A DNA stretch of 39,096 bases from a virus. Below are positions 1 through 34,987 of the stretch, piece by piece. The notes under the pieces are model-generated. The model was not told where the DNA came from, did not search any database, and saw nothing but the letters and a program-made list of their open reading frames with translations. The translations under genes and the position numbers were made by a program. The stretch covers positions 1 through 39,096 of the IMG/VR virus record IMGVR_UViG_3300030390_000938. One strand, given 5' to 3'. Numbering within the stretch: position 1 is the stretch's first letter; each line of letters starts with the position of its first letter.

Positions 1-21
1 GTATAACACTGTACCAGATAT

Positions 22-49
22 AAAAAAGCCGCTTACGTCACTAAGCGGC
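22..49 (-). terminator. Rho-independent terminator of the left-edge minus operon
   Basis: The arms GCCGCTTA and TAAGCGGC (28-35 and 42-49) pair perfectly around a 6-nt loop. On the minus strand the stem is followed by six T. It would end transcripts from the PAPS-reductase-like gene and its small followers. The same stem sequence recurs in the plus-strand terminator at 10955-10983. Confidence 0.85.
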
Positions 50-154
50 GAAATGGTTAAGACTATATCTTGGTTAAAAGATAGATACAAAGTGTATCGA
101 TTGACATAGATAGACATCACACTTGTCGCACCGTTCACTATGAGCCGTATGCCG

Positions 155-244
155 TTACATCCTATTTAAAACTATATCACCATTACACTCTAATGCGCCT
201 CGCTCTATCTCTCGACTGTGCTTAGCAATGCTATATATCGTCAT
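155..244 (-). CDS. Possible 29-residue leader or small ORF
   Basis: This ORF begins MTIYSIAKHSREIERG and stops at 155-157. An in-frame GTG at 262 with an upstream AAGG would give 35 residues. It is the only plausible ORF between 52 and 368, and it lies about 110 nt downstream of a copy of the 29-nt upstream motif (353-381). No family is recognised. It is short enough to be chance; the rest of 52-368 shows no other gene. Confidence 0.2.
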   Translation of the reverse strand: MTIYSIAKHSREIERGALECNGDIVLNRM

Positions 245-352
245 AGCTACGAGATTAATCACCAAACCTTATTAATTGATTGATAAACCCTGTGTCTTTA
301 TGCGCTATACTTCTGCACTGCACAATTTAATAATACACCAACCGTCAAATAT

Positions 353-381
353 TGCTAATAACGTTTAGTTATAAGCTTATA
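353..381 (-). promoter_or_regulatory. 29-nt upstream motif, copy E (divergent)
   Basis: On the minus strand this reads TATAAGCTTATAAC then TAAACGTTATTAGCA. It matches the consensus CATATAACAAAACGGTATTT seen at 942, 1908 and 34959, with several substitutions. It overlaps the end of the 48-residue gene at 369-515 and points toward position 1. A promoter role is inferred only from recurrence and orientation. Confidence 0.4.
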
Positions 382-515
382 CCATGCACACTAAATTTAA
401 CATCACATACCCGCCACTGCGGCAAGTCCATTGTATAACCTTTGTTCCAACCCATCATTTGCATAGTTAATATGCCGTTTACGTGTGCGTTACTTCTTGT
501 TCTGCATTTTTTCAT
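369..515 (-). CDS. Small hypothetical phage protein (48 aa)
   Basis: The product is 48 residues, beginning MKKCRTRSNAHVNGILTM. Its ATG overlaps the stop of the preceding gene as ATGA, so it is probably translated by coupling. The N-terminus is basic with one Cys, and two Trp residues follow (positions 23 and 34). I recognise no domain. It is the last confident member of the chain of small minus-strand genes that ends at the terminator at 22-49. The call rests on the overlap architecture and conserved strand rather than on similarity. Confidence 0.5.
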   Translation of the reverse strand: MKKCRTRSNAHVNGILTMQMMGWNKGYTMDLPQWRVCDVKFSVHGISL

Positions 516-694
516 AACATAGCCTTTTTAATTGCTTCGTGAGTTACATCAGCGGCGGTTAATTCAATATCTACAGCACGACATAAACCGATAAACTGAC
601 CAGTCATTTCTGAGTGGTCGTATAACTCGTCAACCACATTCATGACCATGTATTGAGTTGATTCGGAAACTGTGAATTGGTCTTTGTAATTCAT
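512..694 (-). CDS. Small hypothetical phage protein (60 aa)
   Basis: I place the start at the ATG at 694 (MNYKDQF...). It overlaps the stop of the upstream gene as ATGA. A longer reading from 763 would overlap the neighbour by about 70 bp. The product is acidic and soluble, predicted largely helical, with no membrane segment or recognisable motif. The stop overlaps the next start at 515. Position in an ATGA-linked chain downstream of a conserved motif suggests a co-expressed accessory gene. The function is unknown. Confidence 0.6.
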   Translation of the reverse strand: MNYKDQFTVSESTQYMVMNVVDELYDHSEMTGQFIGLCRAVDIELTAADVTHEAIKKAML

Positions 695-891
695 AGCATT
701 TGCGCCCCATATAAACCTAAACCAAATAAAACTGGCCAGATTAAATGCCATAACCGCGAGCATGTAACCTCAACTTTTGAAGGCATACCATATTGTTTAG
801 CATATCCCCAGGCTAAGTTTTCATTTTTAGCCTTAACGCGCATTGAGCTTGGCTTGCTACCGGTTACGAAAGTCACTTTGTATAAATTCAT
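691..891 (-). CDS. Small hypothetical protein with C-terminal hydrophobic segment (66 aa)
   Basis: The product begins MNLYKVTFVTGSKPSSMRVK, a pattern common to small phage proteins of unknown role. It ends in a hydrophobic stretch (about residues 46-66, LWHLIWPVLFGLGLYGAQML) that could be a single membrane segment. A good ribosome site, GGGAGAA, precedes the ATG at 891. It is the first gene of an ATGA-coupled trio (691-891, 512-694, 369-515), and copy A of the 29-nt motif ends 51 nt upstream of its start. It may be membrane associated; the function is unknown. Confidence 0.6.
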   Translation of the reverse strand: MNLYKVTFVTGSKPSSMRVKAKNENLAWGYAKQYGMPSKVEVTCSRLWHLIWPVLFGLGLYGAQML

Positions 892-941
892 TTCATTCTC
901 CCTTAATGTCTGAGCTAATAATAAGCCCAGACCTTTAAAAT

Positions 942-970
942 GTTAAATACCGTTTTGTTATATGGTTATA
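942..970 (-). promoter_or_regulatory. 29-nt upstream motif, copy A
   Basis: The minus strand carries CATATAACAAAACGGTATTT followed by AAC, preceded by TATAAC. It matches copy B at 1908-1936 in all but three of 29 positions. It sits 51 nt upstream of the 66-residue gene, the same distance as copy B from its gene. This is likely a promoter or activator site. Confidence 0.6.
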
Positions 971-971
971 A

Positions 972-1856
972 CTAACTTGCAAATGGCTCGCAGCTACTGG
1001 CGCAACCCTCGTTCATGTGTTCTGGATCATCTTTTGATAGCCATTGAGGGTCTGCATCTTTAAACATTGCTATTATGTCGTCACAGGTTTTGTAATTTCT
1101 ATACATAGTTCTAGGCTCATCAACATGTACCCCTTTTATTTTATTGCTGCCCATATGCCCGTAGTCTTTTTCCATGGTGTTCGCAAACTGCTCAGGTGCA
1201 TCACGGTAAGCTTTCATTGATTTGCGTTCTGACTTTCTAAAGCAGCCAACACAGTTACCTAAATGCTCAGGTATGTCTAAATCAAATTCGCGATCTTCCC
1301 ACCAATCTAAAATATCTAATTTATCTGGCGCATCATCAAACCAATGCGCTAGAGGGTATACTTTATTTTGCGGTGTCATTGAGTCTTTTAACCTTCTAGG
1401 CTCATCAATGCGTATACCTAAAGCTGTATTGTAATTATTATCTCCGTCTTTTTTATTGCTCCAGCCAAGCACGTTTTTTACATAGTCATGTATAGGCGCT
1501 TCTTTAAGCTCTCTTGTGCAGTGCGGGTAAGCTGCGTTTGGTAGGCCGTACTTCTTTATGACATCAACCATTGGCTCTCTATTTCTTGAGGCTGTTTCGT
1601 ATGTTACAAGCTTGTGGGTGCAGGCGACTCGACCAGTGTGAACAACCGCCTCAACCCATATTGGTTTTGCACCATATAGCTTAGCGTTTTCTATATCGTT
1701 ATTATTTACGAACTCTAAAGTTTTATGATGCTCCCACCCTGTGTTTGCAAATATACCAACAATATTATATTCATCTGAATATTCAGTAAGTAAGCGCTTA
1801 TACATATATTCGCTGGTTCTTCCACCTGAGCGACAAACTAATAAATTCTTTTTCAT
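972..1856 (-). CDS. PAPS reductase / PP-loop superfamily protein
   Basis: This is a 294-residue member of the phosphoadenosine phosphosulfate reductase-like adenine-nucleotide alpha-hydrolase family. The pyrophosphate loop SGGRTS lies at residues 10-15, FANTGWEH at 37-44 and HCTRELK at 112-118. A CxxC pair (C202, C205) and late cysteines C285 and C289 could hold a metal or Fe-S cluster. The ATG at 1856 is preferred over an upstream GTG because GGAG lies six bases before it. In phages this family is often annotated as PAPS reductase. True sulfate reduction is unproven, and a role in thio-modification of nucleic acid (DndC-like) or another adenylation is possible. It forms its own unit behind motif copy B. 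Confidence 0.8.
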   Translation of the reverse strand: MKKNLLVCRSGGRTSEYMYKRLLTEYSDEYNIVGIFANTGWEHHKTLEFVNNNDIENAKLYGAKPIWVEAVVHTGRVACTHKLVTYETASRNREPMVDVIKKYGLPNAAYPHCTRELKEAPIHDYVKNVLGWSNKKDGDNNYNTALGIRIDEPRRLKDSMTPQNKVYPLAHWFDDAPDKLDILDWWEDREFDLDIPEHLGNCVGCFRKSERKSMKAYRDAPEQFANTMEKDYGHMGSNKIKGVHVDEPRTMYRNYKTCDDIIAMFKDADPQWLSKDDPEHMNEGCASSCEPFAS

Positions 1857-1907
1857 TTCAATCTCCACTAATTATTTCCACTAAATCTATCGCATATTCC
1901 GAATTAA

Positions 1908-1936
1908 GTTAAATACCGTTTTGTTATATGCTTATG
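1908..1936 (-). promoter_or_regulatory. 29-nt upstream motif, copy B
   Basis: The minus strand carries CATAAG then CATATAACAAAACGGTATTT and AAC. It ends 52 nt before the ATG of the PAPS-reductase-like gene. It is nearly identical to copy A, and its edge overlaps the first 8-mer of the iteron-like array. Confidence 0.6.
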
Positions 1937-2041
1937 CGTTTTGTATCACCAACTTAATCAAAACTAAATAAACTTAATCCAACTTAATCATTTTTCTATT
2001 TAGTTGGTTGTAAGTCTTTCTTATATATATCTTTTTTCTAT

Positions 2042-2168
2042 TCCCAACTAAATAACTAAATAAATAGGTAAACTACATGTATAGGATAAAATAAAATGTA
2101 CTGTGTATATATGTTTTTTATACGTATATAAGAGATGGGATAGAAAAGATTTAGTTATTTAGTTGGGA
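2042..2168. repeat. Perfect 20-bp inverted repeat around an AT-rich core
   Basis: TCCCAACTAAATAACTAAAT at 2042-2061 is exactly reverse-complemented at 2149-2168. Each arm contains two tandem iteron units. The 87-bp interval is strongly A/T biased and has TA-rich stretches. The geometry suits a DNA-unwinding element flanked by initiator sites. Confidence 0.75.
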
Positions 2169-2199
2169 TTTAGGTGGGTTGTTGTTTTGGCTAATAAAA

Positions 2200-2223
2200 A
2201 TCCCAACTTAATTAAGTTGGGAT
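2200..2223 (-). terminator. Terminator of the primase-helicase operon
   Basis: A perfect palindrome, ATCCCAACTTAA with its reverse complement, is flanked by AAAAA and TTTTT, so it can terminate on either strand. It lies 25 nt downstream of the primase stop. Its arms are themselves iteron units. Confidence 0.7.
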
Positions 2224-2247
2224 TTTTGGGTTATTTAGTTGGATTGG

Positions 2248-4473
2248 TTATTTTGCGTACACGTAGTGATAATTTTCTCCGCTAAAGTTTGTTCGTCTTC
2301 TTCCCACTGGCTCATAGCCTAAGTTCAAAAGAGCATTTTTAAGCGCCTTCGTCTTCGGAAAGTCTTCCCACTTATCATCAAAATCGGCCGCATTCTTTAT
2401 AATCTTACCTAGTTGGGTGACGTCAATTTCTCCCACATCACATTTTATTTGCTCGCTAAACTCCTCTAACGCGTCTTCAAGTGCTACTTGAGTCGACGAT
2501 TTACTTAGTTCTTCCATCATTAATTTTGCGTTAGTTGCTGGCGCTCTCTTGTAGCTTAAAAACTCGTTACTTATCTCAATATCTAAAAAGAATTTACGCA
2601 ACTCACCAGCGTTATTACGCACGATTTCATACAACGAACTGTAGTAATTAGGATTGCTATGCATAAACGCTTCTAGCGCGTCTTTACGTTGCCACTGGCT
2701 AAACAATATACAATAACGTCTGTCGTTGGCGTCTATTGGTATAGCGTCTTTAAAGTTAGTTAGTGCGAAATAGTTTGTTGTATTGATGACGCTTCTAGGG
2801 TCTTTTCCTTTTTTGTGCTCTTCAACAACTGGATTACTAATATAAGGCTTTAAGTTGTTTAACACTTCATATTTGCGCGTATTATCAAGTTTTAACTCTT
2901 CTATAAACGTCATACACTGACCTGTAGCCCAACCCGTGAAATTACTCTCAAGGCTACCAACGTTCATAATACGTACGTTATTATATCCCATTACAATCTG
3001 CATCATTTCAGCTAACAAGCTCTTACCATCACCTTGCACACCTTGGAGCACTATTGACCAGTTCATCTTAACACCGGGGTTTTGTACGTTATACGCTAAA
3101 TAATTGATTAATATGTCACGCTCTTTTTCGTCTGGTAACAAGTGTTCAAAGTGACGCATAACAGCTTGTACCGCTTCACCCGGTTCTTTTAATTTTATTT
3201 GCGGCTCTTTATATGTGTTTATATATTCAAGTCCTGCGTGAGTGAATATCTCACCAGCAGCAGGAAAATACATACTGTTTTCTACTATTTCTATAATGTC
3301 ATTAGCGTAAACAGTCGCGCTCTGCTTTTCACCATCTGCGCTTAAAGGTGTGTCGCGGTTGTGAGCTACATCAAGCGAACGAGGGCCGCAAACCGCCTTT
3401 GTCTCTCGGTTCATATACTCACCTGTTGCAGTCATAAACACATAATCTTCTACATATTCGCCTTTATTACCGTTGCCACGCGCCCGCTTAATTTCACCTT
3501 TAATTGAAGTGATACTTGGTTTATCGCCTAAAATATCAACGTACTTTTGTTGTATCTTTTTCAGTGTAACGTCTAGTGTCATTTGGTCTAAGTTAATCGA
3601 AGCTAAACGTTCAATCTCAGATTTAATATCATCTAAAGTCTCGGCTTGTTCCAAACCTCTATTTGTTTCTTGTACTATTATCTTGCTTTTAGCCTTAGCT
3701 CCGCCTGCTAAATCAATTACACTGGCAAACGTAACCGGGTTAGTATGTTGTTTGCGTGAAAAACTCTCCCAGCGTCTACGGTTCGCGTCCTCATCGTATT
3801 TTTCTTCGCATCGCTGACTAAACTTATCAAATAACGCCCAACCTTCTTCGCCTAATTGATGCCATAGCGCCATACCCACTTTTAACCATGTGTTTTGATC
3901 TGCTGCATGATCATCACTCAACAACTCAACATAGCTTTTAACTTCGTCATAACTAATGTCGTGTGGGTTGGCCGCCACAATACTCAATAAATCGTCTGTA
4001 TCGTTATTGTCTGTCGTTCTTGATTGACTAGTTAATAATGTAATTGCTTTACCCGGTAACGCTGGTAATTCATCTTGCAAAGCTTCAACGATTGAATCGT
4101 GAAAAGTTAAATTCTCGTAGCCTTCACCGCTTGCAATATAGCCTTTGCCACTTGAGCGAGTATCAAAACCAATCACGCCTAGTAAATCTGAACCGTTTGG
4201 GAAATCAAAATTACTAGGTACAGCAAACGCATAATGCATACCACCGTTTAATGTTTTTTGAAGTTCTGCGCTATCCCAATCAAGCTTACAACCTAACGCG
4301 CTCTCAATATCGTCTGTTGATACACCTTTGTATGTGTCTATGTCGATTATAAAAACACCTTGTGGTATCATTATTCCGAACATTGCCGTGTTCACTGAGC
4401 CGCTAAACTCTTGCCAGTTCGTTCCTTTTGGTACGGCTGGCGCCTTATTTTTAGTTAGTGGAAAAACTACCAT
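2248..4473 (-). CDS. Bifunctional primase-polymerase / SF3-type helicase
   Basis: This 741-residue replication protein has an N-terminal prim-pol-like domain with the metal-binding DID at 44-46 in FIIDIDTYKG. A PriCT-like module follows at about 190-250 (NTWLKVGMALWHQLGEEGW). The C-terminal ATPase has Walker A GVQGDGKS near 475-484 and an acidic Walker B, MTFIEELK, near 520. It should unwind DNA and lay primers at the fork. It follows the Cro-like gene with one base between stop and start, and GGGGAA before the ATG serves as ribosome site. The adjoining iteron-like array fits a role as origin-binding or loading helicase. Family assignment rests on motif order. Confidence 0.88.
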   Translation of the reverse strand: MVVFPLTKNKAPAVPKGTNWQEFSGSVNTAMFGIMIPQGVFIIDIDTYKGVSTDDIESALGCKLDWDSAELQKTLNGGMHYAFAVPSNFDFPNGSDLLGVIGFDTRSSGKGYIASGEGYENLTFHDSIVEALQDELPALPGKAITLLTSQSRTTDNNDTDDLLSIVAANPHDISYDEVKSYVELLSDDHAADQNTWLKVGMALWHQLGEEGWALFDKFSQRCEEKYDEDANRRRWESFSRKQHTNPVTFASVIDLAGGAKAKSKIIVQETNRGLEQAETLDDIKSEIERLASINLDQMTLDVTLKKIQQKYVDILGDKPSITSIKGEIKRARGNGNKGEYVEDYVFMTATGEYMNRETKAVCGPRSLDVAHNRDTPLSADGEKQSATVYANDIIEIVENSMYFPAAGEIFTHAGLEYINTYKEPQIKLKEPGEAVQAVMRHFEHLLPDEKERDILINYLAYNVQNPGVKMNWSIVLQGVQGDGKSLLAEMMQIVMGYNNVRIMNVGSLESNFTGWATGQCMTFIEELKLDNTRKYEVLNNLKPYISNPVVEEHKKGKDPRSVINTTNYFALTNFKDAIPIDANDRRYCILFSQWQRKDALEAFMHSNPNYYSSLYEIVRNNAGELRKFFLDIEISNEFLSYKRAPATNAKLMMEELSKSSTQVALEDALEEFSEQIKCDVGEIDVTQLGKIIKNAADFDDKWEDFPKTKALKNALLNLGYEPVGRRRTNFSGENYHYVYAK

Positions 4474-4474
4474 T

Positions 4475-4654
4475 TTATTCCCCTTTTATTAAATCAATAG
4501 CCTTAAACTTACCGCCTGTTATTTCTTCAATTTTAATGGCTTGTAATGGTGGTACTTTACCATCCCTAAACCAGTGAGACACATAGGCACGTGTTACGCG
4601 CAATTCCTTAGCTAATCTGTACTGTGAACCAAAATGCTCAATTAATTTAATCAT
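4475..4654 (-). CDS. Cro-like helix-turn-helix regulator
   Basis: This 59-residue protein begins MIKLIEHFGSQYRLAKELRV and continues TRAYVSHWFRDGKVPP, a classic HTH in which QYRLAKEL is helix 2 and TRAYVSHW the recognition helix. This is the Cro/YdaS type of small phage repressor. It is first in a minus-strand unit with the primase and diverges from the plus-strand replication operon. The 100-bp intergenic region contains a 19-bp palindrome centred in the opposing promoter, so it probably represses the rightward early promoter and perhaps itself. No CI partner or integrase is visible. Confidence 0.85.
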   Translation of the reverse strand: MIKLIEHFGSQYRLAKELRVTRAYVSHWFRDGKVPPLQAIKIEEITGGKFKAIDLIKGE

Positions 4655-4682
4655 AATATTTACCCTTTTAATGTATAAAGTG

Positions 4683-4711
4683 TTTACAGTATATAGATTA
4701 TATACTAATAT
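4683..4711 (+). promoter_or_regulatory. Early rightward promoter with embedded 19-bp operator
   Basis: TTTACA (4683-4688) and TAATAT (4706-4711) are 17 bp apart. The spacer is almost filled by the perfect palindrome AGTATATA-GAT-TATATACT (4688-4706). A minus-strand TATAAT also lies inside it, so one operator could control both directions. It matches the layout of the site at 6232-6260. Confidence 0.7.
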
Positions 4712-4754
4712 GGCTAGTGAGAATTAACAATACAACTTAAAAGGTAAAATTGAA

Positions 4755-5096
4755 ATGAACGAAGAAATTTTAAAACAATTAACACGTATCGCTGATGCAC
4801 TTGAGCTGGCTATACTACCGCAAAATAACCAAGCTTATAGCGAGAAAGTCAAAGAGACTCTAAACGTTGACGATGCACAGCAGAAATTAGCGCCAAAAGC
4901 CGAACCTGAGCAAAGTGTTAAGACTTATACACACGATGATCTTAAAAAGCTTTGTTTAGTTAAATCGCGTGAAGATATAGTAAACAAGCCTAAACTAAAA
5001 GCGCTATTAAAAGAGTACGGAGCAGCTAAAGCTAACGATGTACCGGTTGATAAGCTTGCGGAGTTAATCGCTAAAATTGAAAGCGGGGAGTTTTAA
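4755..5096 (+). CDS. Hypothetical protein of the replication operon (113 aa)
   Basis: This 113-residue protein begins MNEEILKQLTRIADALE, a short coiled or helical start. A linker rich in Ala, Pro, Lys and Glu follows, then a C-terminal helical segment (about 58-110, DDLKKLCLVKSREDIV onward). It is the first gene after the operator-controlled early promoter and ends two bases before the DUF2800 ATG. Proteins with this layout are commonly encoded immediately before DUF2800 genes in phage replication modules. A function is not known to me; a small adaptor or ssDNA-metabolism accessory is only a guess. Confidence 0.7.
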   Translation: MNEEILKQLTRIADALELAILPQNNQAYSEKVKETLNVDDAQQKLAPKAEPEQSVKTYTHDDLKKLCLVKSREDIVNKPKLKALLKEYGAAKANDVPVDKLAELIAKIESGEF

Positions 5097-5098
5097 TC

Positions 5099-6223
5099 AT
5101 GGCAATTAAACATGCCAAGTTATCAGCCAGTGGGTCATCCCGCTGGCTTAACTGCCCCGGTAGCGTACAAGCTGAGTCTAGTTACCCTAACACAAGCTCA
5201 AGCGCTTCTAACGAAGGTAGCTGTGCTCATGAGGTTGCAGATTTATGTTTGCGGAATAACGAAGTAGCTGAAAGTTATTTAGGTCAAGTTTTCTTTGGCG
5301 TGAAAGTAGATCAAGAAATGGTCGAGCATGTTCAAGGGTATGTTGACTTTGTTTTAAGCTTTGAAGGTGAGTTATTCCCTGAACAACAAGTGGACTTTAG
5401 TCCGTGGGTGCCTGATGGGTTCGGCACCTCTGACGCGATTGTTATACAAAAAGATAAAGTTCAAATAATTGATCTTAAGTATGGTAAAGGCGTTGAAGTT
5501 TTAGCAGAGAATAACAGCCAAGCAATGTTGTACGCGCTCGGTGTCTATAATGACTATGGTTATCTGCTAGACGACCAAGAAACGTTTGTGCTTCACATCT
5601 ACCAGCCACGCATAGGCAATTTTAGCGAATGGGAAATAAGCCTAAAGGATTTACTCAAGTGGGGCGAATGGGTAAAGCTTCAAGCTGATTTAGCATTGAG
5701 CAAAGACGCTGAACGTGTACCGGGTGATAAACAGTGCCAATGGTGCCGCGCTAAAGGTGATTGTAAGGCGCTGTTCAATTACACGCAAAAAATTATCATG
5801 GCTGAGTTTGACGATATTGAGGCGCTTGAAAACCCCGACAACTTGAGTAATGAACAAAAACGCATAGTAATACAAAACCGACCTTTAATTGAAAGCTGGC
5901 TAAAAAGCGTTGAGCAATCTGTTATGACCTTAATGCTAGATGGTGCTAAGTTTGCAGGTTTTAAACTTGTAGAGGGTCGCAGTAATCGTAAGTGGTCTGA
6001 TGAAGAACAAGCTAAAGAGGTTTTATTGTCTGCTAAAGGTGAAGATGAAATTTATACTAAAAAGCTAATAAGCGCACCACAGGCTGAAAAGCTGTTAGGT
6101 AAAAATGAAAAACACTTAATTGCAGACCTAATAATTAAGCCGAACGGTAAACCAACCTTAGCGCCAGAGAGCGATAAACGCCCACCGATAGGTGACGTTA
6201 CAGATTTATTTGAAGAAATGTAA
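5099..6223 (+). CDS. DUF2800 PD-(D/E)XK nuclease, RecB/Cas4-like
   Basis: This 374-residue protein of the DUF2800 family has a RecB/Cas4-type nuclease core: H44-E45 (CAHEVADLC), D112 in FGTSDAIVI, and D125-x-K127 in IIDLKYGKG. C19 near the N-terminus plus C213, C216 and C222 (CQWCRAKGDC) form the one-plus-three cysteine pattern that holds an Fe-S cluster in AddB and Cas4 nucleases. It probably processes DNA ends during phage recombination or replication. GGGGAG before the ATG is a strong ribosome site. It is followed, after a second promoter, by the DUF2815 gene, its usual partner. Confidence 0.88.
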   Translation: MAIKHAKLSASGSSRWLNCPGSVQAESSYPNTSSSASNEGSCAHEVADLCLRNNEVAESYLGQVFFGVKVDQEMVEHVQGYVDFVLSFEGELFPEQQVDFSPWVPDGFGTSDAIVIQKDKVQIIDLKYGKGVEVLAENNSQAMLYALGVYNDYGYLLDDQETFVLHIYQPRIGNFSEWEISLKDLLKWGEWVKLQADLALSKDAERVPGDKQCQWCRAKGDCKALFNYTQKIIMAEFDDIEALENPDNLSNEQKRIVIQNRPLIESWLKSVEQSVMTLMLDGAKFAGFKLVEGRSNRKWSDEEQAKEVLLSAKGEDEIYTKKLISAPQAEKLLGKNEKHLIADLIIKPNGKPTLAPESDKRPPIGDVTDLFEEM

Positions 6224-6920: not shown

Positions 6921-8693
6921 ATGAATAAACCTAAAATGCTCGATATAGAATGTTATATTGATTACTATTTGATTAGCTTTAAATGTATCGAAACTGGTCG
7001 TTATCGCGAGTTTGAAATGTTTGAAGGCCAACCGCTCGACCGTCACGCCGTTTCTAAAATCATGCTTAATAATTTGACTGTTAGCTTTAACGGTTTAGCT
7101 TATGACTTACCAATGATAGCCGCTGCGCTCAAGGGCTACACAAACGAGCAGCTTAAAATGTTATCTGATGAACTGATAATAAGCGGTAAGCCTGGTTGGT
7201 TAGTATGTAAAAATAAAAAACTTTATGTGCCTAATAAATGGGACCACATTGATTTATTCAACGTTGCCCCAGGTGCCGCAAGTTTAAAAATTTACGGTGG
7301 TCGCTTACACTCCAAAAAACTTCAAGACCTGCCTATTGAGCCTAGCGCAAATATTAAACCGTCAGAGCGCGAGCCTATGCGTTTATATTGTCGAAACGAC
7401 CTAGACACTACAGAAGATTTATTTAACGCTATACGCAAGCAAATAGACCTACGAATTACGCTTACTGACAAGTATGGTATTGATTTACGCTCCAAATCAG
7501 ACGCACAAATTGCAGAGGCAATAATTAAGCAATATCTTGAAGGTTACGGGGTCAATGTTGTTAAACGCTCAACTGCTATAAAGCCTTTTAAATATCGTCT
7601 ACCTGATTGGGTTAAGTTTGAAACTGATGTTTTTAACGATATGTTGGACAAGGTTATTGACTGTACTTTTAAAGTTAATGATAAAGGTTCGGTTGTATTA
7701 GCTAAAGAGTTAAACAAGGCCATTGGTTTTTACGGAGCCAAATATAAGTTTGGTATTGGGGGATTGCATAGCCAAGAAAAAAGCCAAGTGATAATACCAT
7801 CTAAAGATGAAATGTTCGGTGAGTTCGATTTAACGTCAATGTACCCGACAATCATTATCGAGCAAGAGCTTTACCCAGAACATTTAACCAGTAAATTTTT
7901 AGACGTTTACACAATGATAAAAGACGAGCGTGTAAAAGCTAAAAATGAAGGTAATAGCATTGTTGATAAAGCCTATAAAATCTTGCTTAACGGCTCTTAT
8001 GGTAAGTTCGGCAGCAAATACAGCTATCTTTATTCACCTGAGCTTTTGATACAAACAACTATCACAGGTCAATTGTCTTTACTAATGATGATTGAGCGTT
8101 TAGAACTTGCTGGCGTTAATGTTGTTAGTGCTAATACTGACGGTATAAACGTAGTGTTTAAAAAATTGCAGCATAATGAAGTTGAAACATTGATTTATCA
8201 ATGGGAGCTTGAAACAGGGTATAACTTTGAATGGACACCTTACGCGGCTACATACTCGCGTGATGTGAATAATTACGTTGCGATTAAACAAGGTGGCGGC
8301 GTAAAAGGTAAAGGTGCATTTGCTGAGCCTAATTTAATGAAAAACCCGACCAATGAAATTTGCATTATTGCAGTTAAAGAGTATTTAGCTAATAGCACTC
8401 CAATCGAGCAAACTATAAAAGCGTGTAAAGACATTACAAAGTTTATAAGCATTCGCTCTGTTACTGGTGGGGCTGTGTGGCGTGATGAGTATTTGGGTAA
8501 AGCTGTTAGGTTTTATTATTCAACTGATGGTGATGTGATCACATACAAGAAAAACGGCAACAAAGTGCCACGCACAGACGGTGCAAAACCTTTAATGAAT
8601 CTATGTGATGAGTTACCAAGCGATTTAAATAAACAATGGTACATTGAAGAATCTATCAGCATGTTAGCTGATTTAGGGGTTAACTATGCTTGA
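6921..8693 (+). CDS. Family-B-like DNA polymerase with 3'-5' exonuclease
   Basis: This compact 590-residue replicative polymerase has exonuclease motifs D8-I-E10 (Exo I), NGLAYDL with D62 (Exo II) and YCRND with D160 (Exo III). Polymerase motif A is DLTSMYPT at 303-310, motif B K353-ILLNGSYG and motif C ANTDGI with D407. The second catalytic aspartate of the usual YxDTDS is not present in that form. I start at the ATG at 6921 (ribosome site AAAGAGAAA) rather than a GTG at 6894. The stop overlaps the VRR-NUC start by 8 bp. The same DUF2800/DUF2815 module in many phages carries a PolA-type enzyme, so this is a variant. Confidence 0.85.
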   Translation: MNKPKMLDIECYIDYYLISFKCIETGRYREFEMFEGQPLDRHAVSKIMLNNLTVSFNGLAYDLPMIAAALKGYTNEQLKMLSDELIISGKPGWLVCKNKKLYVPNKWDHIDLFNVAPGAASLKIYGGRLHSKKLQDLPIEPSANIKPSEREPMRLYCRNDLDTTEDLFNAIRKQIDLRITLTDKYGIDLRSKSDAQIAEAIIKQYLEGYGVNVVKRSTAIKPFKYRLPDWVKFETDVFNDMLDKVIDCTFKVNDKGSVVLAKELNKAIGFYGAKYKFGIGGLHSQEKSQVIIPSKDEMFGEFDLTSMYPTIIIEQELYPEHLTSKFLDVYTMIKDERVKAKNEGNSIVDKAYKILLNGSYGKFGSKYSYLYSPELLIQTTITGQLSLLMMIERLELAGVNVVSANTDGINVVFKKLQHNEVETLIYQWELETGYNFEWTPYAATYSRDVNNYVAIKQGGGVKGKGAFAEPNLMKNPTNEICIIAVKEYLANSTPIEQTIKACKDITKFISIRSVTGGAVWRDEYLGKAVRFYYSTDGDVITYKKNGNKVPRTDGAKPLMNLCDELPSDLNKQWYIEESISMLADLGVNYA

Positions 8694-8961
8694 ATCTAAA
8701 ATAGAAAAAGACAGCTTAAAAGAAGCGGCTAAACATGGTTGGTTTGCATTTAAAGTTATGAGTCAGTTGAATAAAGGGTTGCCGGACAAGTGTTTTATTG
8801 GTCATGGTAAAGTTGTTTTTATTGAATACAAGCAACCAGGCAAACAGCCTACAAAGTTGCAAGCCAAAGTACACCAAACATTTTTAGAGCATGGCGTAAA
8901 AGTACACGTTTGCACTAGCATAGACGAAACAATGGAGGTTTTAAACTCTTACATTCCTTAG
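8686..8961 (+). CDS. VRR-NUC domain nuclease
   Basis: This 91-residue stand-alone VRR-NUC (PD-(D/E)XK) protein has GLPD at 31-34, the catalytic core E47-Y-K49 in VVFIEYKQPG and the conserved Q59 of the KLQ helix. Phage VRR-NUC proteins are thought to act as structure-specific or Holliday-junction nucleases in replication and recombination. Its ATG overlaps the polymerase gene by 8 bp with AGGGG just upstream, so the two are translationally coupled. Confidence 0.9.
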   Translation: MLESKIEKDSLKEAAKHGWFAFKVMSQLNKGLPDKCFIGHGKVVFIEYKQPGKQPTKLQAKVHQTFLEHGVKVHVCTSIDETMEVLNSYIP

Positions 8962-8989
8962 TTGATTTGTTTTACCCTTGGTGTATACT
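8962..8989 (+). promoter_or_regulatory. Promoter for the AP2/HNH gene
   Basis: TTGATT (8962-8967) and TATACT (8984-8989) are separated by 16 bp, beginning just after the VRR-NUC stop. The start codon at 9020 lies about 30 nt downstream, preceded by GAGGGT. An own promoter suits a mobile cargo gene. Confidence 0.5.
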
Positions 8990-9019
8990 AATAGTTATAT
9001 ATTAACCGAGGGTAAAACA

Positions 9020-9562
9020 ATGATTACACATCCTGTTGATCAATCAACACTAAAAGAGCTGGTAACTTACAATCCTGAAACAGGTAAAATGTTTTGGAAA
9101 GCTAGAACCGCTAAACATATAAACTCTTCTTCCGCTTTAAAATCATTTAACACTCGATACGCTGGTAATGAAATAAAAACCATTGATGGTAAAGGTTATT
9201 ACCATGGTAGTTTTGGTGGGAAATTTTTACGAGTACACAGACTTGCTTGGCTATATGTCTATGGTGAAATGCCGAAAACAATAGACCATATAAATGGTGA
9301 TAGGACTGATAATAGAATTGTTAATTTAAAATCAGTTACCAATCAGGAAAACCACTTAAACCAAAGGTTAAATAGTACAAACACAAGTGGGGTTGCTGGT
9401 GTTTATTTAAATAAAAAATCTAATCGTTGGTGCGCTCAAATGAAGTTTAACGGTAAAACGTATCATCTAGGTAGTAGTAAAAGTTTTTTTGAAACTGTTT
9501 GCCTAAGGAAATCAGAGGAAAGACGTTTGGGTTTTTCACTTAATCATGGAGTTAGAAAATGA
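9020..9562 (+). CDS. AP2-domain HNH homing endonuclease
   Basis: This 180-residue protein has an HNH nuclease core at about 73-103 (H73, D89-H90, N98, N102; KTIDHINGDRTDNRIVN). A C-terminal AP2-type DNA-binding segment lies at about 122-158 (SGVAGVYL, W137, YHLGSS). Such enzymes are usually selfish homing endonucleases that spread between related phages. I start at the ATG at 9020, not 8978. It has its own promoter. Its stop overlaps the SNF2 start (ATGA), so the insertion left the downstream gene intact and coupled. No intron was seen, so it is a free-standing type. Confidence 0.85.
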   Translation: MITHPVDQSTLKELVTYNPETGKMFWKARTAKHINSSSALKSFNTRYAGNEIKTIDGKGYYHGSFGGKFLRVHRLAWLYVYGEMPKTIDHINGDRTDNRIVNLKSVTNQENHLNQRLNSTNTSGVAGVYLNKKSNRWCAQMKFNGKTYHLGSSKSFFETVCLRKSEERRLGFSLNHGVRK

Positions 9563-14143: not shown

Positions 14144-16201
14144 TTAGTTTGAAATCTTTGACCAGTCGCTATTAGTTAATCCGTATGCCATCCACCAAGA
14201 GTTATCATTCGCCATAAATACCTTCTCAGTTTCCCATCTTGGAGTTAGCAAGCCCACAGGTGTAGCTGCGTTTAAACTTCTTACGCCTCTTTTTTTAACT
14301 CCTGTTTCATTTGCTAAAGTATAACCATTACTTAACCCTGTAGCACCGTTAAACCATTGTAGATCAGCCACTCCACCGCCAAGTTTGGTTGGGCTAAATT
14401 CGTCAAGGGAGCATGTAGCATTAACCCTTAACCCTGTTCCTGTAGCTGATTCGTAATTACCTCCCACTAAAGCGCCGCCTGTGACATTTTCTAAATACCC
14501 GGCATCATTAGCAACACCTCTAAAATTTAAGTTTAAGTAATTAGTATCGCTTGAGCTAAAAACTCTCAGCCCATTATTCCCGCTAGTGGGATTTGGTGAA
14601 GCTGTATAACCTTTCATGCTAAAGCCTTCAAAAGTACACCTGTCTGCACTTTCTACATTTAAAATATTTCCGCTTATATTTGTACCGCTGACATCACTTA
14701 TGCTTATATCATCACCTTTACTAAAGGATATACCCCTTTCTGCCACTCCTACCCCTCTCTGGTTATAACCTATATCATTTAGTTTTACGCCTGATATATC
14801 CAATCTTTTAGGGTATAGGTCTGAACCAAAATCCTCAAATGTCAAACCGTTACCGCATATTCTTGCTGATACATTACTGACTTGGCAGTCAGTGAATGAT
14901 CTTTTAAACCCTATAGCGCCAAACCTGCATCCTGTCGCAACAATATTTGAAATTTGATTGTTATATGTCGATCCTGCCGCGCTTCCATTCGCGTATATAC
15001 CAACATCACCAGCGCCAAATATTCGCAAGCCATCAATTTGAGAGTTTTTATTGTCGCTAAACATCAAGGCAGAGTCTGGAGCGTCAAGTATTAAAAGATC
15101 TGTTATTTTATTCCCGTCACCGCCAATTGTTACCGTGTCACACACTACGAACTGATCATTTCCACCAGCCCTATTCCCATCTATGTGCAAACCATCAAGC
15201 CAAATCTCCTCTCCTTGCGCATTGATAGGGAAATATTGAGAGCCTGTATCAGTGGCTATATTATCCATAAATTTTAATTTTCCACCATGATTTTGTAGTA
15301 TTGTTCTGTCACCTACAGACAAATTAGAGAACATCCAGTACGGTTCGTTTATTCTCGGTGTTAAAGCAACAACCCAATGGCCGCTTTTATTTGAAGCGTA
15401 ATCCAAAGCTCTCTGCATGGCCTCTTGATCTGTTCTCCCAGATCTTTCAAATGCTTTTAAGTCTAAAGCTCCCTCTATCTGCAATTCAAATCTATCACCG
15501 TTAGCTTTGTCTATGATTATATCTCCATCTCCAAGAGCGCCAGAAGAAATAACCCTGTAATTAAAATTTCTTGAAACCTTTTCTATTGTCGCATTTGCCC
15601 CGACATTATAATTAATAGCAATCTGGTCTGCCTCGTTACCAATACGACTGTATATATCATCATGAGCACCAACAGCATTGCGATTACTTAGATTGCTATG
15701 ATCATTATAAAAAACTTGCTTATAGTCAGGCGCGCTCGGTACAGTGCCAGCAGTTACTACTTTGTTAGGCGCTCCCGCACCAATGTAAGCCCACACATTA
15801 CCGCTAGCATCAATACCCACTTGACCGTAAGCGTCATAAGTAAAACCATCGGCGAAGTTACCAACCACATAAGGCGTGCGCTCCATTATCTCCTGCACCG
15901 ACTCATCAACTCGGCTATTGAAGTAATCAGCGCCGACAACGGTAATCGGAGTCACTTGATTTTGATATTCAGCGTTATAACCACCCGCTTCAATAAAAAA
16001 AGTAAACTGACCATTTGAGGCTGTAACGTTAGCCAATCCATCTTGTTGAATTTCAGAAGATCCAGCCAAGTCACGGTAAATAGGCTGTAAAACCCCGTTT
16101 GTTTTCTTAATGTATATCGGCTGCCCGCTAACGTAGTTTTTACCGTCACTATCTGCGTCAACCAAAGTCCCGATTGATATTGTAAAAGATTGTAAAGCCA
16201 T
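14144..16201 (-). CDS. Tailspike / receptor-binding protein, second copy
   Basis: The product is 685 residues. The first ~182 (MALQSFTISIGTLVDAD onward) are nearly identical to the N-terminus of the spike at 16520-18667 and form the tail-attachment part. From about 230 to 620 an Asp/Gly/Asn-rich repetitive region (IWLDGLHIDGNRAGG, FGAGDVGIYANG) indicates a right-handed beta-helix. A distinct C-terminal cap ends WWMAYGLTNSDWSKISN. It should bind and possibly depolymerise surface polysaccharide. The gene sits behind a duplicated scrap of the tail-tip gene that supplies its ribosome site (AGAGAG). It is separated from the first spike by a terminator, so it needs read-through or its own promoter. 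Confidence 0.85.
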   Translation of the reverse strand: MALQSFTISIGTLVDADSDGKNYVSGQPIYIKKTNGVLQPIYRDLAGSSEIQQDGLANVTASNGQFTFFIEAGGYNAEYQNQVTPITVVGADYFNSRVDESVQEIMERTPYVVGNFADGFTYDAYGQVGIDASGNVWAYIGAGAPNKVVTAGTVPSAPDYKQVFYNDHSNLSNRNAVGAHDDIYSRIGNEADQIAINYNVGANATIEKVSRNFNYRVISSGALGDGDIIIDKANGDRFELQIEGALDLKAFERSGRTDQEAMQRALDYASNKSGHWVVALTPRINEPYWMFSNLSVGDRTILQNHGGKLKFMDNIATDTGSQYFPINAQGEEIWLDGLHIDGNRAGGNDQFVVCDTVTIGGDGNKITDLLILDAPDSALMFSDNKNSQIDGLRIFGAGDVGIYANGSAAGSTYNNQISNIVATGCRFGAIGFKRSFTDCQVSNVSARICGNGLTFEDFGSDLYPKRLDISGVKLNDIGYNQRGVGVAERGISFSKGDDISISDVSGTNISGNILNVESADRCTFEGFSMKGYTASPNPTSGNNGLRVFSSSDTNYLNLNFRGVANDAGYLENVTGGALVGGNYESATGTGLRVNATCSLDEFSPTKLGGGVADLQWFNGATGLSNGYTLANETGVKKRGVRSLNAATPVGLLTPRWETEKVFMANDNSWWMAYGLTNSDWSKISN

Positions 16202-16519: not shown

Positions 16520-18667
16520 TTATACTCTTGCGTTTACAGTGTACTCCAAAGTTAAGCCCGTTTGACTTGCTGCTACAGTCCCGTCTGATACATTATAAAC
16601 AGTCAATGTAAAAGAGTTTTGATTAGATGAAACTAAAGAAACTGTATAAGCGCCAAATATAGTTATAGAGCTTGAGTTCTCAAAGCCTAAATTGTGAGTT
16701 ACAGTTAATTGACCACTCGCGTTTGTTGATTGCGAGAAAAGCCTCCCTGACTTTGAAGTCCCACTCAACCCGCTAAAATCATTTCCCGTTCCTGTATTTG
16801 CTATGTTACCAGAAACGATACCAGTGAATACGTTGTTATTGCCTGTTACAGATAAATCACCATCAGTATTTAAGTTGATTGCATTTCCTGAACCAGAAAT
16901 GACCGTAGGGTTTACGCAATTTAAAACTGATAAACTTAAGTTTGCTTTACTGCCCAATATTGAGGCGGGCGTTTCGCAATTCTCAATATCCAAACTTCCA
17001 GTGCATGAGTCACCAGAGACTATTGCGCCATGAGTTGTTGATGTACCGACGCCGATTAGTTTTAAATCAACTTTAGTCTTATACCCTTTAACTTCTATCA
17101 AGCGGCCTGTTGTGTTTAATACCGCACCTTTATATGTATTGTCTCTGCATAGCCAGTTGTTGGCAGAATTATCATCAAGTATGCCAGCAGTGCATCCATC
17201 CGCGTGAATATTTAAAGTGTTACCCCTAGATCCAGAAAAGCAAACTACATCACAATCCTTTGCTATTAAATTAATGACGTTATTGTGACTTTCTGCACCT
17301 TCTGGCACTAACTCAGCGTCACCGTGTATTTGAGCGCCCACTCCGCAATTATTGGCAATCACCTCAATTACATTTGAATTACTGTATTGTTGCAATGAAA
17401 CGCCAGTTGTAAAATTATCAGATATAACGGAAAATTTATTGGCTATATTTGGCGCGAAGTCAAATGCAGTTACTCGAAGGCCATGAAAAACAGCTCTACC
17501 GCCAAGGCCGTCATTACCGTTGAAAGTCATATCAACTATATTGCAAAACTGAGAGCCGAATGATTGATAACCCATACCAACAATATCAACCCCAACCAAG
17601 CCTTTTGAGTTTATTCTTTTGCAAGATCTATCAGCTAAGGTTGCCGCTCCATACTCAGTCTTAACACACAGATCAACACCATCAAAAAACAGGTCTGAAA
17701 TAACCCCATCGTGAGCGCCAAAAACAGCCAAACAGAAGTGATTATTTGCTGTGCCGCCAGACATATTTGGGTCGTTTGGTTGCGATATAGTTAAATCTGA
17801 TACTTTAATGTTTCTTATGTTACTAACGAGGTTAGAAAACGCGACTACCGACTCGCCAACTGTGGAGGTGCTTACAATAGAGTTTTTTGGTATGCTGTAA
17901 ACATGCGAAGAAAAAATCACAGGGTCAATGTTGAAATTAGCTTGACTCTGATTGGAGAACAGAGATTTACCGCCTCCTAAGCTTATCTCCGTCAAACCAT
18001 TTGGACTATCATCGACACCAGCGTAAAGAAAATAATTGTTTAAATCCTCAATTTTATACCTAGTGCCTACGGGTGGGTTTTCTGCCTGAGCCTCCGCTAG
18101 AGTTACAGTGCGAATATAAATATCATCATGAGAACCTACACCATTTCGATTCACTAAAAGGCCGTGATCATTATAAAAAACTTGCTTATAGTCAGGCGCG
18201 CTCGGTACAGTGCCAGCAGTTACTACTTTGTTAGGCGCTCCAGCGCCAACGTAAGCCCAAGCATTACCGCTAGCATCAACACCCACCTGACCATAAGCGT
18301 CATAAGTAAAACCATCGGCGAAGTTACCAACCACATAAGGCGTGCGCTCCATTATTTCTTGCACTGATTCATCAATTCGATTGTTAAAGTAATCAGCACC
18401 GACAACAGTAATCGGGGTTACTTGACTTTGATGTTCAGCGTTATAATCACCCGCCTCAATAAAGAATGTAAACTGCCCTTTATTATCAGTAACATTAGCT
18501 AATCCATCTTGCTGAATTTCAGAAGTACCATCTAAGTCGCGGTAAATAGGCTGCAAAACCCCACTTGTTTTCTTGATGTAAATTGGTTGGTTTGGCACGT
18601 AGTTTTTGCCGTTATTATCAGCATCAGCTAGCGCCCCGATTGATAGTGTAAAAGATTGTAACGCCAT
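16520..18667 (-). CDS. Tailspike / receptor-binding protein, first copy
   Basis: This 715-residue paralogue of the gene at 14144-16201 shares the N-terminal ~182 residues (MALQSFTLSIGALADAD onward, containing VQEIMERTPYVVGNFADGF). After YIRT it diverges completely. Repetitive N/G/V-rich strands (VISDNFTTGVSLQQYSNSN, NLIAKDCDVVCFSGSRGN) point to a beta-helix. The C-terminal domain (about 645-715, LTVTHNLGFENSSSITIFG) looks like a compact trimerisation or binding cap. The ATG lies three bases beyond the tail-tip stop, with AGAGAG inside that gene's 3' end. It probably recognises a different receptor from its paralogue. Confidence 0.85.
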   Translation of the reverse strand: MALQSFTLSIGALADADNNGKNYVPNQPIYIKKTSGVLQPIYRDLDGTSEIQQDGLANVTDNKGQFTFFIEAGDYNAEHQSQVTPITVVGADYFNNRIDESVQEIMERTPYVVGNFADGFTYDAYGQVGVDASGNAWAYVGAGAPNKVVTAGTVPSAPDYKQVFYNDHGLLVNRNGVGSHDDIYIRTVTLAEAQAENPPVGTRYKIEDLNNYFLYAGVDDSPNGLTEISLGGGKSLFSNQSQANFNIDPVIFSSHVYSIPKNSIVSTSTVGESVVAFSNLVSNIRNIKVSDLTISQPNDPNMSGGTANNHFCLAVFGAHDGVISDLFFDGVDLCVKTEYGAATLADRSCKRINSKGLVGVDIVGMGYQSFGSQFCNIVDMTFNGNDGLGGRAVFHGLRVTAFDFAPNIANKFSVISDNFTTGVSLQQYSNSNVIEVIANNCGVGAQIHGDAELVPEGAESHNNVINLIAKDCDVVCFSGSRGNTLNIHADGCTAGILDDNSANNWLCRDNTYKGAVLNTTGRLIEVKGYKTKVDLKLIGVGTSTTHGAIVSGDSCTGSLDIENCETPASILGSKANLSLSVLNCVNPTVISGSGNAINLNTDGDLSVTGNNNVFTGIVSGNIANTGTGNDFSGLSGTSKSGRLFSQSTNASGQLTVTHNLGFENSSSITIFGAYTVSLVSSNQNSFTLTVYNVSDGTVAASQTGLTLEYTVNARV

Positions 18668-34847: not shown

Positions 34848-34958
34848 ATGGGGAAAAGGCTGTTTAAGCTATAGCTAGATAACCCGCCTTAACCACTCCA
34901 TAATTAAATTATAACGCACTCACCGCTAAGTGCAAATATAATCCACCTAAACCCATTA

Positions 34959-34987
34959 GTTAAATACCGTTTAGCTATATTCTTATG
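34959..34987 (-). promoter_or_regulatory. 29-nt upstream motif, copy C
   Basis: The minus strand carries CATAAGAATATAGC then TAAACGGTATTTAAC. It lies in the 241-bp divergent gap between the HNH gene and the plus-strand cargo gene and points toward the HNH gene. No gene is seen in 34816-35056. Confidence 0.55.

Follow-up and report, generated by a model that had tools for sequence, protein, structure and literature searches.

Where does this marine phage begin to replicate its DNA, and which of its proteins recognizes the site? The window, that is, the whole stretch of DNA analysed here, is a complete virus record of 39,096 bases (IMGVR_UViG_3300030390_000938) that matches Pseudoalteromonas phages over short stretches. 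It contains genes for portal, terminase, capsid, tail and lysis proteins, and no end repeats were found in it. Given that the genes divergent from the primase-helicase gene encode a DUF2800 nuclease, an Enc34-type ssDNA-binding protein, a family-B DNA polymerase, a VRR nuclease and an SNF2 helicase, the phage possesses much replication machinery of its own. Two adjacent large genes elsewhere in the window (14144-16201 and 16520-18667) have nearly identical NH2-terminal parts and different COOH-terminal parts, like alternative tail-fibre proteins. A first-pass annotation had proposed a cluster of the octamer AACTWAAT beside the primase-helicase gene as a replication origin, recognized by either the primase-helicase or a Cro-like protein.

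Iteron array behind the primase-helicase gene

The cluster lies in non-coding DNA between the primase-helicase stop codon (2248) and a PAPS-reductase-like gene (972-1868), and the gene positions thus confirmed the setting described in the first-pass annotation. Its count was reproduced exactly, with 13 copies of AACTWAAT on the two strands of 1903-2240 versus 6 in the remaining ~38.7 kb. Dinucleotide shuffles of 1870-2247 (n = 5000), a comparison akin to one that the annotation had suggested, yielded a mean of 0.22 copies and a maximum of 4, and the array was the strongest 8-mer cluster within the entire window. For the extended form CCAACTWAAT, 8 copies were observed versus a mean of 0.007 and a maximum of 1 in shuffles of the same region, and all 8 exact copies of the whole record are located inside 1949-2242. 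Many copies had been described as extended by CCC; some are indeed extended, but CCC is present on only 4 and CC on 8. The outermost iteron starts 5 bp past the primase-helicase stop codon, which places the array immediately 3' of the presumed initiator gene, as in phage-inducible chromosomal islands (PICI).

The cluster is therefore real, but its extent of 1903-2240 had to be revised. Given that the copy at 1903-1910 lacks the CC and sits at a 28-bp promoter-like repeat, we place the array proper at 1949-2242 (Table 1), and the stray copy is probably outside the origin. The 28-bp repeat, GTTAAATACCGTTTTGTTATATGNTTAT, occurs at 942-969, 1908-1935 and 34958-34987, upstream of minus-strand genes, and is also present in other Pseudoalteromonas phages; it is probably a phage promoter.

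The inverted repeat reported around an AT-rich core was verified: its arms match perfectly over 20 bp and stand 87 bp apart, forming a repeat downstream of the gene as in pRN1 and BIP-1, and each arm consists of two tandem units. Measured between facing 9-bp units, the core is 105 bp long. We presume that the iteron-free core is the unwinding element. A palindrome nearer to the primase-helicase gene looks, from its sequence, like an intrinsic terminator at the 3' end of that gene. Terminator-like hairpins built of opposed iterons are located behind the primase genes of the window and of four relatives (L008, L010, L028 and L030), so that termination and initiator binding may interfere with each other.

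Table 1 Features of the array region and adjacent genes in the window.
Feature	Position	Strand	Description
Stray AACTTAAT	1903-1910, within 1903..1935	-	Overlaps 28-bp promoter-like repeat upstream of PAPS-reductase-like gene
Iteron array	1949..2242	.	8 CCAACTWAAT and 4 AACTWAAT without CC, in two mutually facing sets
Arm 1 of inverted repeat	2042..2061	+	Tandem doublet of 8-bp unit (2046-2053, 2054-2061)
Iteron-free core between arms	2062..2148	.	AT 0.76
Arm 2 of inverted repeat	2149..2168	-	Tandem doublet of 8-bp unit (2149-2156, 2157-2164)
32-bp palindrome	about 2196-2227	.	Two opposed overlapping iterons (2205/2211), T run on either strand
Primase-helicase	2248..4473	-	PrimPol-like N-terminus, PriCT-2, SF3/DUF5906 helicase, predicted C-terminal winged helix; presumed initiator
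Winged-helix coding part	2251..2517	-	Residues about 653-741, predicted; presumed iteron reader
Cro-like regulator (P22_Cro/YdaS)	4490..4654	-	Upstream of primase gene

No DnaA box (TTWTNCACA), such as a classical iteron plasmid would have, was found in 1-4900, and the window's post-primase region contained no exact match to the consensus IHF site. Cumulative GC skew, which had been put forward as a check on the origin, has a local minimum near 4.7 kb. Since the skew changes sign where gene orientation does (~4.7 and ~14 kb), this minimum is confounded and the skew is uninformative.

Private repeats and shared layout in relatives

Relatives of the primase were taken from IMG/VR and from phage genomes; a profile search of genome contigs with the primase alignment confirmed no relatives. 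Behind the primase-helicase gene of the relatives, the nearest non-coding gap is AT-rich and contains short repeats that are private to each lineage, among them GGGTCTAA in L008 (whose primase is 72% identical to that of the window), TGTGCAGG in L009, AGGCCACAA in L010, AGGGACA in L014, GGTGTTTRAT in L015, GGGCCAGAA in L028, GTATCAGGG in L030, GTATCCGAA in Vibrio phage 1.017.O, AGGTCCGAA in Burkholderia phages AH2 and BcepNazgul, and AGCGGATA in Vibrio phage LP.1, in which 7 of the 8 genomic copies are inside the post-primase gap.

With one fixed threshold, strong 8-mer clusters were detected in 15 of 22 post-primase regions compared with 3 of 388 control windows. The strongest of these three control windows belongs to Stenotrophomonas phage Suzuki, in which a dense GTACTGTCAC array (5431-5772) lies beyond two small genes that follow the primase, in the first gap without coding sequence, and is likely a displaced origin. 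The other two were set aside: in PCA1 the cluster, which is farther off, consists of two hairpins that are almost identical, and in R16L it looks like a coding repeat. In 7 of the 22 regions, no clear array was evident immediately after the primase. None was found behind the primase of PHS21, FoX4 or R16L; in E21 and Saba, downstream repeats are present but do not form a clear iteron array. PCA1 has doublet-like arms, and RDJL3 has no significant inverted-repeat arms.

Among 17 phages, the iteron of each (allowing up to one mismatch) was present downstream of the primase in all 17 and within 700 bp upstream in none. Given that these phages were chosen for a visible repeat, the downstream count is partly a matter of construction, whereas the upstream zero is not.

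What the relatives share is a layout. Facing iterons enclose an AT-rich, iteron-free gap of mostly 79-106 bp; in the window, L010, L028 and L030 this gap measures 105, 105, 105 and 106 bp, with 9-bp units that are unrelated to each other. Doublets spaced 8-11 bp apart often flank the edges of the gap, and significant inverted repeats were found in many relatives. Within the AT-rich core, no shared motif was detected beyond what shuffles gave. Sites matching the IHF consensus were enriched, with 13 in 23 post-primase regions versus ~0.9 expected. One such match, ATCAATAACTTA, recurs in the post-primase regions of L009, L015, L028, L030 and L034. A search of the open-access literature revealed no described origin for this phage group.

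Structure prediction for the primase-helicase

Pfam analysis of the window primase-helicase identified PriCT-2 and DUF5906 and gave no PrimPol match, and the winged helix is a predicted one; relatives of the protein are annotated as bifunctional primase/polymerase. A model of the COOH-terminal 142 residues predicted helices followed by a winged helix (pLDDT of 87). The best structural matches of this domain were winged-helix proteins, at modest similarity (Z up to 5.4), and a Foldseek search against the PDB returned no significant match. P4 alpha was absent among the structural matches listed, which excludes nothing. The fold of the full-length protein was predicted with low confidence (pLDDT of 71) and served for layout only. 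The closest solved structure by sequence is that of NrS-1 polymerase (helicase part, E value of 8e-17). In L007, a stand-alone gene directly behind the iterons (8613-9065) encodes a product that resembles the primase COOH-terminal winged-helix domain and is perhaps a replication regulator.

A Mantel test with 16 phages did not detect correlation of iteron similarity, which is near saturation, with similarity of the PrimPol, PriCT-2, helicase or winged-helix domain or of the Cro-like protein; Cro-like open reading frames were picked automatically for this test, and some of them (L010, BcepNazgul) look wrong. As covariation of iteron and domain was not found, we infer the identity of the reader from other grounds. 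Of the two proteins named in the first-pass annotation, the primase-helicase is favoured by its predicted winged helix and by analogy to pRN1, P4, SaPI Rep and SCCmec Cch2, and it likely reads the iterons through that domain.

Comparison with known origins

The replication protein of the archaeal plasmid pRN1 contains PrimPol, helical, SF3 and winged-helix domains, and its origin has been mapped experimentally: of the DNA downstream of the gene, only a ~100-bp stem-loop is required in cis, and mutants with an altered stem-loop fail (PMC4234260). A similar stem-loop was reported for Bordetella phage BIP-1, to which BPP-1 is nearly identical; the authors found no iteron origin in BIP-1 and left open the recognition motif of the pRN1 replication protein (PMC4234260). 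We found that each 21-bp arm of pRN1 is a TGTCCA doublet spaced 9 bp apart, and that these four copies are the only TGTCCA sequences in the plasmid. The arms of BPP-1 each contain two TTTGCCTCG units, and doublets were also seen in the arms of pHEN7 and phage S1; pRN2, pDL10 and pSSVx have strong arms but no significant doublet. The window resembles pRN1 and BIP-1 in the order of its elements, namely a regulator gene, a gene for a PrimPol-SF3-winged-helix protein (as predicted for the window), a terminator hairpin (terminator-like in the window) and an inverted repeat that encloses an AT-rich core. Arm length is similar (20 bp in the window), whereas pRN1 has two doublets only and a 58-bp loop, and the phage has about 12 copies and a core of 87 bp. 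The window protein, like that of BIP-1, has PriCT_2 in place of the pRN1 helical domain.

The origins of PICI, including SaPI, lie directly 3' of the initiator gene and comprise two iteron sets around an AT-rich region, an organization stated to be unique among known bacterial replicons (PMC6092414). The window has the same arrangement, and complete phages thus appear to share it, whereas PICI are satellites that often have Pri and Rep as separate proteins. The window element is itself not a PICI, and the integrase expected of such a satellite was not among the scanned window proteins (a subset of the open reading frames), though its origin would work like a PICI origin. In SCCmec, the initiator helicase Cch2 uses its COOH-terminal domain to bind the iterons of a putative origin that lies downstream of the helicase gene (PMC7581432); that staphylococcal cassette differs in having three AAGTG iterons and a separate polymerase/primase. 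P4 alpha, as summarized in PMC4234260, is a single protein that serves as primase and helicase and binds the origin, which contains repeats, through a winged helix; its primase domain is of a different type. NrS-1 polymerase needs the 8-nt template motif TTTGGTTA, which is present in two copies per genome and is the proposed origin (PMC7102993, PMC8718748); in contrast to the window, the next gene follows at once, with no iteron gap. The annotation's statement that no described origin has this iteron thus holds for the iteron sequence as far as we searched, whereas the architecture was already known.

Alternative explanations

Four other readings were weighed, and their plausibility declines in about the order given here. 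The functional element might be a cruciform or stem-loop that is recognized through its shape, the mechanism put forward for pRN1 and BIP-1, with the repeats as a by-product. The single strand of the window region folds well (z of -4.5), and both the inverted repeats of many relatives and the failure of the pRN1 mutants (PMC4234260) would fit. We nevertheless regard this reading as improbable, given that the arms are imperfect in L008 (13 of 15 pairs) and L017 (12 of 15) or absent in Serratia phage JS26 while the iterons persist, that additional iterons lie outside the stem, that the loop is as long as 87 nt, and that the arms are repeated internally, which a hairpin does not need. It is slightly less probable again that the iterons act in single-stranded form, as template sites where the PrimPol domain begins its primers, rather than as duplex sites for a winged helix. 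The requirement of NrS-1 polymerase, the closest solved relative, for a template motif supports such sites, but the copies are numerous and stand in tandem doublets related by dyad symmetry, as expected of sites that a protein binds on duplex DNA, and the iterons of the window and L008 differ even though the primases are so similar. Neither PrimPol nor PriCT-2 covaried with the iteron in the 16 phages, in which iteron similarity is near saturation.

The region might also be merely a spacer with a terminator and a promoter, or it might serve in packaging, partition or attachment. The terminator-like palindrome and the promoter-like repeat at 1908-1935 are both present, and the cos site of BcepNazgul is nearby in its record. 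However, terminator and promoter together account for few of the iteron copies, neither integrase nor ParA/ParB was found among the scanned proteins (again a subset of the open reading frames), and the array follows the primase gene in relatives; we consider this reading very unlikely. Least credible of all is that the iterons are operators through which the Cro-like regulator controls transcription. A Cro-like gene is present upstream of the primase in the window, and some relatives have a Cro-annotated gene at the same place. The 700-bp interval in which none of the 17 phages has its iteron is, however, that of the Cro-like gene and the divergent promoter, and binding by the Cro-like protein, the second reader suggested in the first-pass annotation, is therefore unsupported.

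Discussion

The region 1949-2242 is most likely the replication origin of this phage, as first proposed, given that relatives keep its position and layout while each carries a repeat of its own, and that the paired-doublet design is also found in the experimentally mapped origin of pRN1. We hold this reading with considerable confidence. On the basis of sequence, structure prediction and analogy, the primase-helicase would bind the iterons through its COOH-terminal winged helix, and the core would then melt. Copies of the protein would attach to the iterons (~9-10 bp each) in double-stranded form. The opposed iteron sets, which place a tandem doublet at either edge of the core, would position two SF3 helicase rings. 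These rings may melt the AT-rich core and then move apart, after which the PrimPol-like domain would prime, and the family-B polymerase of the phage, together with its ssDNA-binding protein, would extend the primers. Given that each lineage has its own iteron, such an origin would respond to no initiator but its own.

The layout common to the related phages suggests a design shared with pRN1. Whether pRN1, the tailed phages and, judged by layout, the phage-inducible islands all belong to one class of PrimPol-SF3-winged-helix origins, with inverted, initiator-specific doublets of ~8-10 bp around an AT-rich core directly behind the initiator gene, is in our estimation an even question. If they do, the stem-loop of pRN1 and BIP-1 would be a set of duplex winged-helix binding sites rather than a hairpin, and TGTCCA would be the motif that ORF904, the pRN1 replication protein, recognizes. 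This is a testable proposal for the way in which a replication protein of the pRN1 type finds its origin. What is new here is the pairing, in whole phages, of a pRN1-type protein and a probable iteron origin of PICI-like layout, the architecture itself being known, so that a layout stated to be unique to phage-inducible islands is extended to complete phages. For Casjensviridae and their marine relatives, a large and little-studied group, the finding offers a rule for locating origins: a private repeat behind the primase-helicase gene. With an iteron that changes fast within a fixed layout, these phages provide a natural series for the study of joint change in initiator and origin.
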